This document shows positions 1,181 through 26,258 of a stretch of DNA of 44,151 nucleotides, in pieces. The stretch is from NCBI GenBank assembly GCA_026710865.1, contig JAPOQG010000221.1:1-44151 (forward strand), written 5' to 3'. The position numbers and the translations under genes are program-made. The notes beneath the pieces were generated by a model. The model had not been told where the DNA came from, made no database searches, and saw nothing but the letters and a program-made list of their open reading frames with translations. Within the stretch, counting starts at the first letter, position 1. Every line of letters starts with the position of its first letter. Source of the stretch: Acidimicrobiaceae bacterium. GTDB taxonomy: Bacteria; Actinomycetota; Acidimicrobiia; Acidimicrobiales; Aldehydirespiratoraceae.

Positions 1181-1341
1181 CACCCCGGCTGATCGTCCCG
1201 CAGGCGGGGGCATAGAGCAACTGGACCGCCGGCCCGGACAAGCACCCCCGCTGATCGTCCCGCAGGCAGGGGCATAGAGCAACTGGACCGCCGGCCCGGA
1301 CAAGCACCCCCGCTGATCGTCCCGCAGGCAGGGGCATAGAG
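1181..1341. repeat. Tandem repeat of 62 bp, about 2.6 copies, ending in the DUF2277 promoter
   Basis: Copies begin at 1181, 1243 and 1305, each opening with CACCCC(C/G)GCTGATCGTCCC and containing CATAGAG. The third copy stops where the gene begins. Only there is the box completed to TAGAGT; the upstream copies read TAGAGC. The array therefore looks like a tandem duplication of the gene's own promoter region. Confidence 0.9.
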
Positions 1342-2466: not shown

Positions 2467-3192
2467 GTGTCGGAGACTCGCTCGACCGCGGGCGGCGCGG
2501 CGCGATCCGCCACGGCCCGCCAGGTGGTGCGCCGACTCCCGCAGTTGATCGCGGGGTTGTGGATCTTCGGGATGGGTCTGGCTCTCGTGGTGCTCGGCGG
2601 GCAGGGTCAGGGTCCCTGGATCGTGTTCGACGAGGGCGTCTCGCTGCACACGCCGCTGACCATCGGCACGGTTGCGATTCTTGTCGGCGTGGTGCTGGTG
2701 GCCGGGTTGGCGCTGGCTCGCGAACCGGTGGGGTTCGGCACTCTGGCGAACGCGGTGGTGGTGGGGGTCTCGACCGACGTGACCCTGGCGATCTTCGACC
2801 AGCCCGGCTCAGTTATTGGGCAGGTGGCCCTGACGCTGGTCAGCCCGTTGCTGGTAGCGCTGGGCTCGGGCCTGTACCTCGGCGTCATGCTGGGTCCGGG
2901 ACCACGCGACGGCGTCATGACGGCCATGCACCGCCGCGGCGTCCCCATCTGGCTGGCCCGCTTCATCATCGAAGCCGTGCCGTTCACAATCGGCGCGATC
3001 CTGGGCGGCACGGTGGGCTGGGGGACGGTCTACTGGCTGGTGGTCATCGGCCCTGCGGTGAACCTGGCGATGAAGTTCCGCTCCTGGCCCATGGTGCCCT
3101 CGCGCTGGATCGACGTGTTCAACGCCCTGGAGACGGACCGGCACCCCGTACCCCGCACCAACCGCCGGCACCCAGGCTTCCGGCGCCACTGA
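2467..3192 (+). CDS. YczE/YitT-type integral membrane protein
   Basis: About 241 residues with five hydrophobic segments (LIAGLWIFGMGLALVVLGG, IGTVAILVGVVLVAGLAL, LANAVVVGVSTDVTLAIF, VALTLVSPLLVALGSGLYLGV, IEAVPFTIGAILGGTVG). The hallmark is GLYLGVMLGPGPRDGVMTAMHRR followed by GGTVGWGTV and IGPAVNLAMKF, as in the YczE membrane family. The transported substrate or role is not known. The start is uncertain: the GTG at 2467 is used because it follows the preceding small ORF's stop directly, but later GTG codons are possible. Repeat elements follow the stop. Confidence 0.7.
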   Translation: MSETRSTAGGAARSATARQVVRRLPQLIAGLWIFGMGLALVVLGGQGQGPWIVFDEGVSLHTPLTIGTVAILVGVVLVAGLALAREPVGFGTLANAVVVGVSTDVTLAIFDQPGSVIGQVALTLVSPLLVALGSGLYLGVMLGPGPRDGVMTAMHRRGVPIWLARFIIEAVPFTIGAILGGTVGWGTVYWLVVIGPAVNLAMKFRSWPMVPSRWIDVFNALETDRHPVPRTNRRHPGFRRH

Positions 3193-3228: not shown

Positions 3229-3345
3229 AACTGGCAGCACAATGCACGCCATCCGTGCAAAACACTGCCAATTCCCCGGGCCAGCCACCCCCCATCCAGA
3301 ACTGGCAGCACAATGCACGCCATCCGTGCAAAACACTGCCAATTC
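3229..3345. repeat. Two direct copies of the 46-nt hairpin element, 71 bp apart
   Basis: Copies at 3229-3274 and 3300-3345 read AACTGGCAGC...ACTGCCAATTC with an inner palindrome TGCACGCCATCCGTGCA. Each folds as an outer stem GGCAG/CTGCC and an inner stem GCACG/CGTGC around CCATC. The array follows the stop of the YczE-like gene and precedes the ltaE promoter. Related copies occur at 9526, 16324 and 26059. Confidence 0.92.
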
Positions 3346-3395
3346 CTGAAGTGGGTGGGGCACGGACGGGCTGCGGTCTGCCAGCGGAGCGGGTC

Positions 3396-3407: not shown

Positions 3408-4421
3408 GTGATCGATCTTCGCTCCGACACTGTCACCCAGCCCACGGCGGCCATGCGGGCGGCCATGGCGGCAGCCACCGTGGGCGACGACGTGTACGGC
3501 GAGGATCCCACCGTCAACGAACTCCAGGATGTCACGGCCTCCCTGCTGGGCAAGGAGGCCGCGCTGTTCGTGACCAGCGGCACCCAGGGCAACCTCTGCG
3601 GGCTGCTCGCCCACTGCGGGCGCGGCGACGAGTACATCGTCGGCGACCGCGCCCACACCTACATGTACGAGGGCGGCGGCGCGGCGGTGCTCGGCTCCAT
3701 CCAGCCCCAACCGGTTCCCAGGGGCGACGACGGCATGATCGACCTGGCAGCGGCCGAGGAGGCCGTCAAGTCGCCCGACCACCACTTCGCCCGCACCAGG
3801 CTGCTGTGCCTGGAGAACACCGCCGACGGCAACGTGCTGACGCTCGAGCAGATGGAGGCGTCGGCCGAGTTGGCTGCCCGCCACGGCCTGGCCCACCACC
3901 TCGACGGGGCCCGGCTGCCGAATGCTGCGGTGGCGCTGGAAGTGTCGCCGGCCGAGGTGGCTGCGCCGTTCGATTCGGTGTCGGTGTGCCTCTCGAAGGG
4001 TCTGGGCACACCGATGGGCTCAGTGCTGGCCGGACCGGTGGACCTGATCGACGAAGCCCACAAATGGCGCAAGATGCTCGGCGGGGGGCTGCGCCAGGCC
4101 GGGATCGTGGCCGCGGCAGGACTGTACGCGCTAGAGCACCACATCGATCGACTGGCCGACGACCACGCCAACGCATCCCGCCTGGCCGACGGTCTGGCCG
4201 CCATCGACGGCGTCAAGATCGACTCCTGCGCAACCAACATGGTGTTCATCCGCGTCGACGACGAGGGGCGCGGCGACGGCCTGGACCTGCGGACAGGACT
4301 CGCCGACCGCGGCATCCTCACCCGCTGGGACGGCTCCCGGGCCCGGCTGGTCACCCACCTCGACGTGACCGCCGATGACATGGAGACGGCCATCGACGCC
4401 TTCGCCGAACTTCTGTCCTGA
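3408..4421 (+). CDS. ltaE: Low-specificity threonine aldolase
   Basis: The 337-residue PLP enzyme (fold type I) cleaves threonine or allo-threonine to glycine and acetaldehyde. The opening [12 protein letters not shown] is the standard family start, followed by [14 protein letters not shown] and [12 protein letters not shown]. The [11 protein letters not shown] motif contains the PLP-binding aspartate. The Schiff-base lysine is in [13 protein letters not shown] (K197), and [11 protein letters not shown] follows. Length and domain order are normal. The GTG start is supported by the upstream TAGCCT box. It appears to be a single-gene unit. Confidence 0.93.
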
Positions 4422-4487: not shown

Positions 4488-4500
4488 CTTGACCGAGCCG

Positions 4501-4666
4501 GCCCGAGCGGCCCGCGATGAGTACGGTGAGACCATGACCCTGGCCGTGGGGCGCCGGTGGGCGCCTTCGCGGCCCGAGCGGACCGCGATGAGTACGGTGA
4601 GGCCATGACAAGGTGGTCGTGGGGCGCCGGTGGGCGCCTTCGCGGCCTGAGTACGGTGGCGCCATG
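4501..4666 (+). repeat. Triplicated leaderless promoter-plus-start unit upstream of the guanine deaminase gene
   Basis: Three tandem units each contain GAGTACGGTG. The boxes TACGGT lie at 4522, 4593 and 4652, and each is followed by exactly six bases and an ATG (4534, 4605, 4664). The first two ATGs open mini-ORFs of 24 and 20 codons. The stop of each overlaps the next ATG as ATGA, and the last ATG is the real gene start. The first mini-ORF begins MTLAV, as does the enzyme, so the unit is a copy of the gene's own promoter and first codons. Confidence 0.88.
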
Positions 4667-6007
4667 ACCTTGGCTGTTGCTGGCACGCTGATGCAGACAC
4701 CGGCACCGGACCAGTTCACCGTCACCGATGCGGTCGTCGAGGTGGACGCCACCGGGGCCATCGTCGCCGTCCACGACCGTTCCACGCCTGAGGGAGCGGC
4801 TGCCGGACGGGCCGCGCTGGACGCCGCTGCCGAACGGGTGGAACTGGCGCCGGGCACGTTCCTGATGCCCGGCATGGTGGATCTTCATGTGCATGCGCCC
4901 CAGTGGCCCCAGCTCGGCACCGGCCTCGATCTGCCCTTGGAGCGGTGGCTGTTCGAGTACACCTTCCCACTGGAGGCCCGCTACGCCGACACCGGCTTCG
5001 CGGCGGCGGTGTGGGACGACCTGGTCCCGACCCTGCTCGCCCACGGTACGACCACCGCCGTCTATCACTCGTCGAACCATCTGGAGGCCACGACCGCGCT
5101 GGCCCGAACCTGCGCCCGCCACGGGCAACGGGCGCTCGTGGGCCGGGTCGCCATGGACCATCCGTCAGGAACCCCTGAGTGGTATCGCGATGCGACCGCG
5201 TCGGAGGGCGTGGACGCGTCGGCCGCGTCCATCGAAGCGGTGGAAGCGCTCGCGAGTCCGCTCGTGGAGCCGATCATCACTCCCCGCTTCGCGCCGGCCT
5301 GCACCGACGCACTCCTGGAGGGGCTCGGCGAACTGGCCGAGTCCACCGGCGCACGGACGCAGACCCACTGCGCCGAGTCGGACTGGCACTGCGGCTACGC
5401 CCTCGACCGGTTCGGCACCACCGATCCGGCCGCGCTCGACCGCTTCGGCCTGGTACGGCCCCGCACAGTGCTGGCCCACGCCGACCACCTCACCACCGAC
5501 GACATGGCCCTCGTGTCGGGTCAGCGGGCGGGCGTGGCCCACTGCCCGCTGTCCAACGCGTACTTCGCCAACGCGGTGTTCCGCGTGCGGCGGGCGCTGG
5601 CCGCCAACGTCCGCGTGGGCCTGGGCACCGACATCGCCGGAGGGGCCCGTCCCGGACTGCTGGCAATGTGCCAGGACGCGGTGACCGTCTCCCGCATGCT
5701 CGAGGACGGCGTCGACCCGGCCCTCGGCGCGGCGGAGCGGGGCGTGCCGGCGTCGCGGATCGACACCGCGACCGCCTTCTGGCTGGCGACCGCGGGCGGC
5801 GCGGCGGTAGTCGACCTGCCGGTGGGGCTGATCGAGCCGGGCCGCCGCTTCGACGCCATCGCGGTGCGCGCCGACCGGCCCGGCGGAACCATCCGGCTGT
5901 GGGACGGCTTCGACGACGAGGCCCGCATCTTCGAGAAGGTCGTCCGCCTGGCCGCCGACGACGACATCAGCCACGTCTGGGTGGACGGAGCGAGCGTCAA
6001 ACCATAG
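4664..6007 (+). CDS. guaD: Guanine deaminase-like amidohydrolase
   Basis: A 447-residue metal-dependent amidohydrolase. After a short beta-sandwich N-terminus comes PGMVDLHVHAPQWPQ with the HxH metal ligands (H75, H77). Then follow LERWLFEYTFPLEARYAD and LLAHGTTTAVYHSSNH, as in guanine deaminases. Further ligands are in THCAES (His/Glu) and VLAHADHL, then VAHCPLSNAYF and GLGTDIAGGARPG with the catalytic aspartate. The family converts guanine to xanthine in purine salvage; related ring deaminases cannot be excluded. The start at 4664 is chosen from the third promoter box and the MTLAV repeat; the track's GTG at 4613 lies inside the repeat array. Confidence 0.85.
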   Translation: MTLAVAGTLMQTPAPDQFTVTDAVVEVDATGAIVAVHDRSTPEGAAAGRAALDAAAERVELAPGTFLMPGMVDLHVHAPQWPQLGTGLDLPLERWLFEYTFPLEARYADTGFAAAVWDDLVPTLLAHGTTTAVYHSSNHLEATTALARTCARHGQRALVGRVAMDHPSGTPEWYRDATASEGVDASAASIEAVEALASPLVEPIITPRFAPACTDALLEGLGELAESTGARTQTHCAESDWHCGYALDRFGTTDPAALDRFGLVRPRTVLAHADHLTTDDMALVSGQRAGVAHCPLSNAYFANAVFRVRRALAANVRVGLGTDIAGGARPGLLAMCQDAVTVSRMLEDGVDPALGAAERGVPASRIDTATAFWLATAGGAAVVDLPVGLIEPGRRFDAIAVRADRPGGTIRLWDGFDDEARIFEKVVRLAADDDISHVWVDGASVKP

Positions 6008-7940: not shown

Positions 7941-8720
7941 GTGCCGGAGATCATCGAGGTGGAGGCCTACCGGAGGGCGATCTCGGCCACGGAGGGGCGG
8001 ACGATCTCTCGCGTCCACGCTCCCGACGAGTGGTTCGCGAAGGGCGGCACCTCCACCGACGCTCTGCGCCTGGAGCTGACCGGGGCACGGGTCGACACGG
8101 TGCGACGCATCGGCAAGCTCGTGATCGTCGACACCGACGGGCCCCGGCTGGGACTGCGATTCGGAATGACCGGCAAGATCGTGGTGGACGGAGCCATGCC
8201 CATCGACCACCTGCTCTACGACAGCCCCCGCCACGAACCGGCCTGGGACCGGTTCGGGCTCCAGTTCGAGGGCGGGGGTGCCATGGTGCTGCGCGACCCC
8301 CGCCGGCTCGGCGGCGTGCAGCTCGACCCCGACGAGCAGGCACTGGGACCCGACGCGCTGTCCTTGACGCTGGGACAGCTGCGCAAGGCCCTGGCCGGCT
8401 CGACGGTGGCACTCAAGGCCCGGCTGCTGGACCAGCGCCGGGTGGCCGGACTCGGCAACCTGCTGGTCGACGAGGCGCTGTGGCGGGCCGGCCTGTCGCC
8501 CGTCCGGGAAGCCCGTTCCCTGGACGCCACCGAGGCGGCCCGGCTGCACCGCAACATCCGCCGCACGCTGAACGTTCTCGGCGAGCGGGGCGGATCCCAC
8601 ACCGGCGACCTCCAGCCGGGCCGGGTGCGGGGCGGCGGCTGCCCCCGGGACGGGGCGCCGCTGCGCCGCGACCAGGTCGGCGGCCGCACCACCTACTGGT
8701 GCCCCGCGCACCAAGGCTGA
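7941..8720 (+). CDS. mutM: Fpg/Nei (MutM-type) DNA glycosylase
   Basis: The 259-residue base-excision repair enzyme starts with PEIIEVEAYRR. Proline 2, after removal of the initiator residue, is the catalytic amine and glutamate 3 is conserved. A helix-two-turn-helix region contains LLDQRRVAGLGNLLVDEAL. The C-terminus has a zinc finger with CPRDGAP and TYWCPAHQG, as in Fpg/Nei proteins. The opening PEIIEVE rather than PELPEVE suggests an Fpg2/Nei-like branch, so substrate preference is open. The GTG start has AGAGG upstream and a TAGGTT box about 30 bases before. The last codons and stop are part of a 72-bp tandem repeat. Confidence 0.85.
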   Translation: MPEIIEVEAYRRAISATEGRTISRVHAPDEWFAKGGTSTDALRLELTGARVDTVRRIGKLVIVDTDGPRLGLRFGMTGKIVVDGAMPIDHLLYDSPRHEPAWDRFGLQFEGGGAMVLRDPRRLGGVQLDPDEQALGPDALSLTLGQLRKALAGSTVALKARLLDQRRVAGLGNLLVDEALWRAGLSPVREARSLDATEAARLHRNIRRTLNVLGERGGSHTGDLQPGRVRGGGCPRDGAPLRRDQVGGRTTYWCPAHQG

Positions 8721-8872
8721 CCCGACTGGGCCGTGCCGCGCGATCCCGACCTCGACTGGAACACCCACTGGTGCCCCGCGCACCAAGGCTGACCCGACTG
8801 GGCCGTGCCGCGCGATCCCGACCTCGACTGGAACACCCACTGGTGCCCCGCGCACCAAGGCTGACCCGACTC
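8695..8872. repeat. Tandem repeat of 72 bp (about 2.5 copies) duplicating the end of the glycosylase gene
   Basis: Copies start at 8695, 8767 and 8839. Each contains ACTGGTGCCCCGCGCACCA and the TGA that ends the gene, so the last codons (WCPAHQG-stop) are repeated twice after the real stop. The last copy breaks off before the engB promoter. Confidence 0.92.
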
Positions 8873-9525: not shown

Positions 9526-9640
9526 AACTGGCAGCACAACACGCGCCATCCGTGCAAAACGCTGCCAAATCCCGCAGACGGCGTCCTCCGAGCCGGAACT
9601 GGCAGCACAATGCACGCCAGAGGGCCGCACTGCCTCCAAT
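9526..9640. repeat. Hairpin element pair, the second copy truncated
   Basis: A full copy at 9526-9571 (AACTGGCAGC...GCTGCCAAATCC) has a slightly altered inner stem. A second begins 71 bp later at 9597 and matches to AATGCACGCC, then changes to AGAGGGCCGCACTGCC. The break falls between engB and the DUF4143 ATPase gene, which may have entered at the repeat. Confidence 0.85.
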
Positions 9641-9729
9641 CACCGCCCGCGGTCAACCCGGCCACAGCACAACAAGACCCGTTACCGGACGACAACCGAC
9701 AGATGAATGTCACAGTACGGTGCGAGTGT

Positions 9730-13657: not shown

Positions 13658-13910
13658 ACGCGAAGGGCTCGCACCTGTCCGCGCGCCTGGCACCTGCGGC
13701 TGCGGGCCCGCGCCGCCCCGCAGTCGGCGCACGCGATGGGCTCGCGCCTGTCCGCGCGCGCCCAGACCGGCCACGTCAACGCCCGCACCGACGTCGACGG
13801 CAACGCGAAGGGCACTCACCTGTCCGCGCGCGCCCCCAGACGGGCCACGTCAACGCCCGCACCGACGCCGACGGCGACGCGAAGGGCACTCACCTGTCCG
13901 CGCCCGTCCT
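13658..13910. repeat. Tandem array with 72-74 bp period, four copies
   Basis: Copies of ACGCGAAGGGCACTCACCTGTCCGCGC start at 13658, 13731, 13803 and 13877. The intervening GGCCACGTCAACGCCCGCACCGACG is shared by the central copies and the first is the most diverged. It fills the gap between the nitronate monooxygenase promoter and the acyl-CoA dehydrogenase 3' end; no gene is seen here. Confidence 0.85.
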
Positions 13911-15222: not shown

Positions 15223-15263
15223 CGGCCTCACTCTCGCCCCAACGACGCCGGCTCGCAACCGCG

Positions 15264-15432
15264 TGCAATCCCCCCGCGCGCCGACCTACGAGCCCGCCGC
15301 CAACCCGCCACCACCCCATCAGCACACACTCACACCGCCCGTGCAACCCCCCATGAAGTCGACCCACGAACCCGCCGCCAACCCGCCACCACCCCATCGA
15401 CACACACTCACACCGCCTGTGCAATCCCCCCG
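15264..15432. repeat. Tandem repeat of 78 bp, about 2.2 copies, upstream of the acyl-CoA dehydrogenase
   Basis: TGCAA(T/C)CCCCC recurs at 15264, 15342 and 15420, and CCCGCCGCCAACCCGCCACC in the first two units. The array fills most of the divergent gap of 313 bases between the acyl-CoA dehydrogenase and the small gene at 15536. Nothing else is recognised in this gap apart from a possible CATACT promoter box at 15523. Confidence 0.88.
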
Positions 15433-16323: not shown

Positions 16324-16441
16324 AACTGGCAGCAGAACGCACGCCATCCGTGCAAAACGCTGCCAATTCTGTAGGCGACCCGCCTCCCCAGCCGGAACTG
16401 GCAGCAGAACGCACGCCATCCGTGCAAAACGCTGCCAATTC
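16324..16441. repeat. Two direct copies of the 46-nt hairpin element, 72 bp apart
   Basis: Copies at 16324-16369 and 16396-16441 read AACTGGCAGCAGAACGCACG-CCATC-CGTGCAAAACGCTGCCAATTC. These have the best outer stem of the family (GGCAGC/GCTGCC). They separate the convergent retropepsin remnant and the IMP dehydrogenase-like gene. Confidence 0.93.
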
Positions 16442-26009: not shown

Positions 26010-26058
26010 GCGCCGCCCTCAAATCCGCTGCCACCCCTGGGCGCCCCTCCCGAACCGG

Positions 26059-26245
26059 AACTGGCAGCAAAACGCACGCCACCCGTGCAAAACGCTGCCA
26101 AACCCCTCGGCGGCCCCCTCCCGAACCGGAACTGGCAGCAAACGCACGCCACCCGTGCAAAACGCTGCCAAATCCCTCGGTGGCCCCCTTCCCGAACCGG
26201 AACTGGCAGCAGAACGCACGCCATCCGTGCAAAACGCTGCCAAAC
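26059..26245. repeat. Three direct copies of the 46-nt hairpin element, 71 bp apart
   Basis: Copies begin at 26059, 26130 and 26201, reading AACTGGCAGCAAAACGCACG-CCACC-CGTGCAAAACGCTGCCAAA. The second lacks one A. The 25-27 bases between copies are similar within this locus (CCTCGG(C/T)GGCCCCC..CCGAACCGG) but unlike those at other loci. The array separates the convergent P450 and SDR genes. Confidence 0.93.
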
Positions 26246-26258
26246 CCCCTCGTCGGGG

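Follow-up and report, generated by a model that had tools for sequence, protein, structure and literature searches.

A promoter and start codon block copied twice in tandem upstream of a guanine deaminase gene in an uncultured acidimicrobiial actinobacterium

Why should a single gene for a purine-breakdown enzyme be preceded by three near-identical start signals? In an uncultured actinobacterium of the class Acidimicrobiia, a block comprising a promoter and a start codon has been copied twice in tandem ahead of a guanine deaminase gene, and the locus raises the questions of where the copies came from, whether each of them could act as a promoter and what they might do to the expression of the enzyme. 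All positions below refer to the window, i.e., the whole stretch of 44,151 nucleotides that was analysed.

Architecture of the array

The array is made of three imperfect tandem TGAGTACGGT-N6-ATG units (in fuller form TGAGTACGGT-N6-ATGAC), with ATGs at 4534, 4605 and 4664 that are spaced by 71 and then 59 nt. The features of the locus are as follows.

3408-4421, plus strand: upstream gene for a low-specificity threonine aldolase-like protein; in most relatives, too, the promoter follows its 3' end
4499-4569, plus strand: unit 1 (71 nt), with promoter, start codon, copied first gene codons and hairpin block (from direct repeats)
4522-4527, plus strand: -10-like box 1, TACGGT, 6 nt before ATG 4534 (from sequence and the genome-wide spacing signal)
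4534-4608, plus strand: mini-ORF 1, 24 codons, ending in ATGA with ATG 4605 (from translation)
4541-4573, plus strand: inverted repeat between starts 1 and 2, core GGCGCC-GGTG-GGCGCC, outer arms GGCCG/CGGCC (from sequence and predicted RNA fold)
4570-4642, plus strand: unit 2 (73 nt; from direct repeats)
4593-4598, plus strand: -10-like box 2, TACGGT, 6 nt before ATG 4605 (from sequence and the genome-wide spacing signal)
4605-4667, plus strand: mini-ORF 2, 20 codons, ending in ATGA with ATG 4664 (from translation)
4614-4646, plus strand: the same inverted repeat again, lying between starts 2 and 3 (from sequence and predicted RNA fold)
4643-4681, plus strand: unit 3, 5'-truncated, with native promoter and the gene's first codons (from direct repeats; orthologous to the single promoter of relatives)
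4652-4657, plus strand: -10-like box 3, TACGGT, 6 nt before ATG 4664, ancestral (kept in 11 of 12 same-genus loci)
4664-6007, plus strand: guanine deaminase gene, 447 aa (from profile match; start fixed by relatives)

The original prediction had described three TACGGT boxes each six bases before an ATG, the first two ATGs opening 24- and 20-codon ORFs that end in ATGA, with the last overlap being the enzyme's own start; the box coordinates agree with a spacing of exactly six bases, and translation returns both ORFs and their overlaps. Two direct-repeat pairs, 4499-4538/4570-4609 (40 nt) and 4541-4578/4614-4651 (38 nt), each have 95% identity, and a 30-nt direct-repeat family is present in three copies. 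The array is a tandem duplication, far beyond chance, and not a coincidence of motifs. Units 1 and 2 differ mainly in mini-ORF codons 3-6, which include a 2-nt indel, while unit 3 lacks 14 nt of unit 2 (CGAGCGGACCGCGA) between CGGCC and TGAG. Copies 1 and 2 retain the -10 box, the 6-nt spacing and the ATGAC start. Tandem Repeats Finder at a score of 40 did not list this imperfect repeat.

The array is known from one metagenome-assembled genome (MAG), the one genome found for its species, and since this is a draft of 424 contigs and tandem repeats are error-prone, we considered whether it might be an assembly artefact. Such an origin is very unlikely, because misassembly of a single unit would not produce the differences between units, which affect several positions and include indels, and because the array is short (about 180 nt).

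The downstream gene product is guanine deaminase-like, its best NCBIfam match being TIGR02967 with 347 bits, slightly under the curated cut-off of 375. An in-frame GTG at 4613 was ruled out as its start, as the alignment of relatives begins at MTLAVAG, at 4664.

A leaderless promoter signal and the ancestry of the copies

In actinobacteria, the -10 box TANNNT has its centre 7-12 bp from the start site, a -35 element is lacking, and many genes are leaderless (PMC3898074; PMC3160421). Genome statistics were taken from 1.13 of the 4.33 Mb (about a quarter of the genome), with ORFs of at least 150 codons used for the TANNNT spacing count. TANNNT preceded starts 55, 53, 37 and 26 times at spacings of 6, 7, 8 and 9, respectively, and about 10 times at spacings elsewhere, while the control motif ATNNNA was flat across spacings in the same 1.13 Mb. 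The same TANNNT peak was seen in a sample of 488 predicted genes and in a second genome of the genus. TANNNT at a distance of six bases ahead of the start codon is a leaderless signal throughout this genome, which gives good grounds for reading TACGGT as a leaderless -10 box; the GAG before the box also fits the SRN extension of the published actinobacterial pattern (PMC3898074; PMC3160421). Further duplicated promoter-start units of comparable identity were absent from the 1.13 Mb sample, and the weaker pairs in it were chance-like.

Acidimicrobiia genomes were used as a source of the orthologous gene together with the flank upstream of it, which gave a set of 12 loci with an intact start region in MAGs of the same genus. 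Exactly one TACGGT-N6-(A/G)TG stands at the gene start in 11 of these 12, with GTG replacing ATG at the same distance from the box in five of those 11. In these relatives the box lies mostly within an invariant GAGTACGGTGGCGCC, and the flank before it varies freely. The array itself occurs in none of the 12 orthologous loci, its sequence is absent from the 15 other genomes among the 16 of the genus that we examined, and it is found at one locus in its own genome and nowhere else there. Compared between species, the copy number is one unit in 11 same-genus loci and three here. A single TACGGT in 11 of the 12 relatives, together with the absence of the array, identifies copy 3 with its box, on sequence comparison, as the native, ancestral promoter, and copies 1 and 2 as duplications seen only in this genome.

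The proposal that the repeat supplies three leaderless promoters can be divided accordingly by copy. Its identification of TACGGT as a leaderless -10 agrees with the TANNNT peak and with the fixed spacing of box 3 in 11 of the 12 loci, and from this conservation we infer that box 3 is in use, whereas the use of boxes 1 and 2 is presumed from their own sequence only. The discriminators of copies 1 and 2 are GAGACC and GAGGCC, with GGCGCC replaced, an alteration that may make them weaker promoters than copy 3. The ancestral gene start ATGACNCTGGCCGTGG is still present in unit 1 while the gene itself now reads ATGACCTTGGCTGTTGC, which suggests that the duplication is probably not very recent.

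In one relative, at L043 (2970-3003), the conserved TACGGT promoter has been lost. The guanine deaminase start there follows the upstream stop after no more than a short gap, an arrangement suggesting that the gene is expressed as part of an operon.

Overlapping mini-ORFs and predicted hairpins

The mini-ORFs at 4534-4608 and 4605-4667 encode MTLAVGRRWAPSRPERTAMSTVRP and MTRWSWGAGGRLRGLSTVAP, respectively, each followed by a stop, and both are out of frame with the enzyme. Due to the 2-nt indel, the block common to units 1 and 2 is read in different frames, so that the two peptides are unrelated beyond their ends. Both ATGA overlaps were obtained by chance in 10.5% of shuffles in which the unit phase was randomised and the interior shuffled. 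The chain follows in part from the gene's first four bases (RTGA) and from unit lengths that are 2 mod 3: all 12 same-genus loci share an RTGAC gene start, at which any suitably phased open frame will end, and in nine of the 11 conserved promoters such a frame is opened, with no repeat at all, by an RTG that lies six codons upstream (RTG AGT ACG GTG GCG CCA TGA or a close variant). The idea of a chain of translationally coupled leaders thus keeps its overlaps but is weakened by this chance frequency, by the RTGA frame in single-copy relatives and by peptides that are not conserved between copies. By analogy with coupled mycobacterial small ORFs (PMC4633059), it would be the coupling, if anything, that is kept, and not the peptide.

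Across the genome, leaderless-type small ORFs had an RTGA end at a long ORF in 10 of 71 cases (14%) as opposed to 6.4% for ordinary small ORFs, and the corresponding values in G009, another genome of the genus, were six of 25 (24%) and 6.7%. This excess over ordinary small ORFs is two- to three-fold (p 0.024 and 0.005 in the two genomes, pooled p 0.0005). Against small ORFs that have TANNNT at other spacings, it does not reach significance. An apparently strong genome-wide RTGA coupling (13 at offset 0 vs 0-3 at other offsets) was discarded as an inflated count, since any TGA stop that follows an A or G necessarily includes RTG.

The blocks between the starts carry the two inverted repeats, and their conservation between units is as high as that of the promoter. 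The exact 22-mer of the hairpin core occurs in just two places in the genome, both in the array as the two inverted-repeat copies. A derivation of the hairpin block 4549-4587 from the end of the upstream gene or from the gene body gave matches no better than shuffles. The 71-nt unit has a predicted fold of -39.7 kcal/mol (z -2.1), the transcript from box 1 has a z of -1.9, and the predicted unpaired fraction of the enzyme start is 0.23 in the longer transcripts vs 0.37 in the box 3 transcript. With its start more paired in this way, translation of the enzyme from the long transcripts would depend on coupling.

These predictions bear on the possibility that the array is an attenuating leader, in which boxes 1 and 2 fire and two strong hairpins plus decoy ORFs lower or condition enzyme expression. 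Strong predicted folding of 4541-4573 and 4614-4646 and an enzyme start that is mostly paired in long transcripts speak for it, and on this modelling boxes 1 and 2 might have an attenuating role or no effect at all. The predicted structure is, however, just mildly beyond shuffles for GC-rich DNA, the T-run of a classical terminator is missing, the window matched no Rfam family at gathering threshold, and neither conservation nor a regulatory codon run was seen in the mini-ORF peptides. On balance we regard an attenuating leader as quite unlikely.

Origin of the array and comparison with known repeats

With moderate confidence, we favour a lineage-specific tandem duplication, occurring twice, of a conserved leaderless promoter-plus-start module, in which all boxes presumably fire and box 3 would be dominant. 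Firing of all three boxes would be in keeping with an actinobacterial RNA polymerase that often needs little beyond TANNNT. Transcripts from box 3 would begin at the enzyme AUG as ordinary leaderless mRNAs, whereas those from boxes 1 and 2 would begin at a mini-ORF AUG, with one or two short ORFs being translated and the ribosome reaching the enzyme only via termination-reinitiation at ATGA. Box 3 would then account for the bulk of the enzyme. The contribution of boxes 1 and 2 would be modest and of either sign, and the net effect of the extra copies on the enzyme level could be up, down or nil. The event itself is most simply seen as a tandem duplication that arose by chance, this genome being rich in repeats, and that was tolerated since the promoter closest to the gene remained intact and the unit phase preserved the coupling of the frames.

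Tandem arrays are found at 10.8 per 100 kb in the sample of this genome compared with 3.5 in 400 kb of G009, where arrays of 50-90-bp period were absent. Five arrays of 62-78-bp period lie in the window (1181-1341, 8690-8871, 13731-13903, 15262-15431 and 26026-26256), amounting to half of all 60-79-bp-period arrays in the 695 kb of genome that was scanned. The ORF at 7941-8720, by eye formamidopyrimidine-DNA glycosylase-like, has its 3' end within the array at 8690-8871.

We also observed a dispersed intergenic doublet, consisting of two near-identical 47-bp imperfect palindromes (GAAYTGGCAG...CTGCCARTTC) that flank a spacer of near-constant length (24 bp, sometimes 25) and unrelated sequence at near chance identity. 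The palindromes are on average 96% identical within a doublet and 85% between loci. The doublet is located at 3229-3349, 9526-9643, 16324-16441 and 26059-26246 in the window and occurs across the genus, in loci L200, L217, L240, L244, L167, L172, L174, L033, L034, L037, L039 and L041; it was absent from 0.38 Mb of more distant Acidimicrobiia loci. In the relative L041 the gap before guanine deaminase (about 2750-3000) holds this dispersed palindrome with a 45-nt exact repeat, whose lag of 71 equals the distance in nt between units 1 and 2 of the array.

Each ingredient of the array is already known from mycobacteria, and the combination is closest to promoter tandem repeats plus RTGA-coupled leaderless small ORFs. 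In M. tuberculosis, dop has a 57-bp promoter repeat with a third copy in strain Erdman, cysG and lpdA have 54-58-bp repeats upstream of leaderless promoters that differ in copy number among isolates, and strains with a second lpdA copy form more biofilm (PMC12817950). The array described here is likewise a tandem repetition of a promoter block of 50-70 bp immediately ahead of a gene, in an actinobacterium whose promoters are of the TANNNT type. It departs from the M. tuberculosis repeats in that the start codon and first codons belong to the unit, so that an ORF is opened by every copy, and in that the copies have diverged.

An adaptive promoter tandem repeat, whose copy number often changes and tunes output while each unit fires and ATGA keeps the enzyme translated, would match the variable dop, lpdA and cysG repeats (PMC12817950), and the units here do retain the -10 box, spacing and start. 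The indels that separate units 1 and 2 and the truncation of the third argue against frequent recent expansion. The fifteen other genomes of the genus lack the array, and we consider this reading unlikely.

In mycobacteria, leaderless small ORFs are RTGA-coupled to the next gene, with the coupling kept and the peptide not (Shell et al. 2015, PMC4633059). Both mini-ORFs resemble these: a leaderless-type TANNNT box lies about six bases before the RTG of an ORF within 5-50 codons, its TGA lies over the next RTG and its peptide is unconserved. They differ in that two such putative ORFs stand in series, derived from the duplicated start of the downstream gene.

A likeness to MIRU elements, which had also been suggested, stands as architecture and fails as membership. 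MIRU ORFs are coupled at start codons with a -4 nt spacing (review, PMC12548453), and the unit here is likewise short, about 71 nt, begins and ends at ATGA and holds an ORF joined to the flanking start codon by a 4-nt overlap. MIRUs are dispersed, whereas this unit is confined to one locus in the genome, does not occur in the 15 other genomes of the genus and carries guanine deaminase's own promoter and first codons, being derived from local sequence. The single locus largely rules out a MIRU or other dispersed repeat, and insertion of a MIRU-type mobile repeat that targets RTGA start codons is extremely improbable. A unit with a start codon, each copy of which builds a coupled leader, was not found described in a small search of the literature.

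More speculatively, the array could be a self-compatible expression repeat, in which ATGA phasing would let the number of units rise or fall with the enzyme still coupled, and copy number would set output; this is decidedly doubtful, though a second lineage may share the layout. In L042 (Candidatus Aldehydirespirator, 2860-3001), the start region before the orthologous gene is repeated, using a different 38-nt repeat at a lag of 74, and several six-codon ORFs follow one another through ATGA overlaps, with the final one running up to the gene's probable ATG (2980). TANNNT at the right distance was absent from this start region. The locus may represent the same layout in a second lineage, or it may be a coincidence.

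Under the favoured tandem duplication, the meaning of the array depends on whether the extra units fire. If they are neutral, the locus would illustrate how easily duplicated starts create small ORFs of regulatory appearance. If they do fire, both promoter tandem repeats and coupled leaderless ORFs would be found beyond the mycobacteria, in Acidimicrobiia, and the locus would serve as a natural experiment in three steps on the combined effect of leaderless promoters and RTGA coupling, with the same -10 box and start preceded by zero, one or two coupled leaders and a single-unit ancestor.
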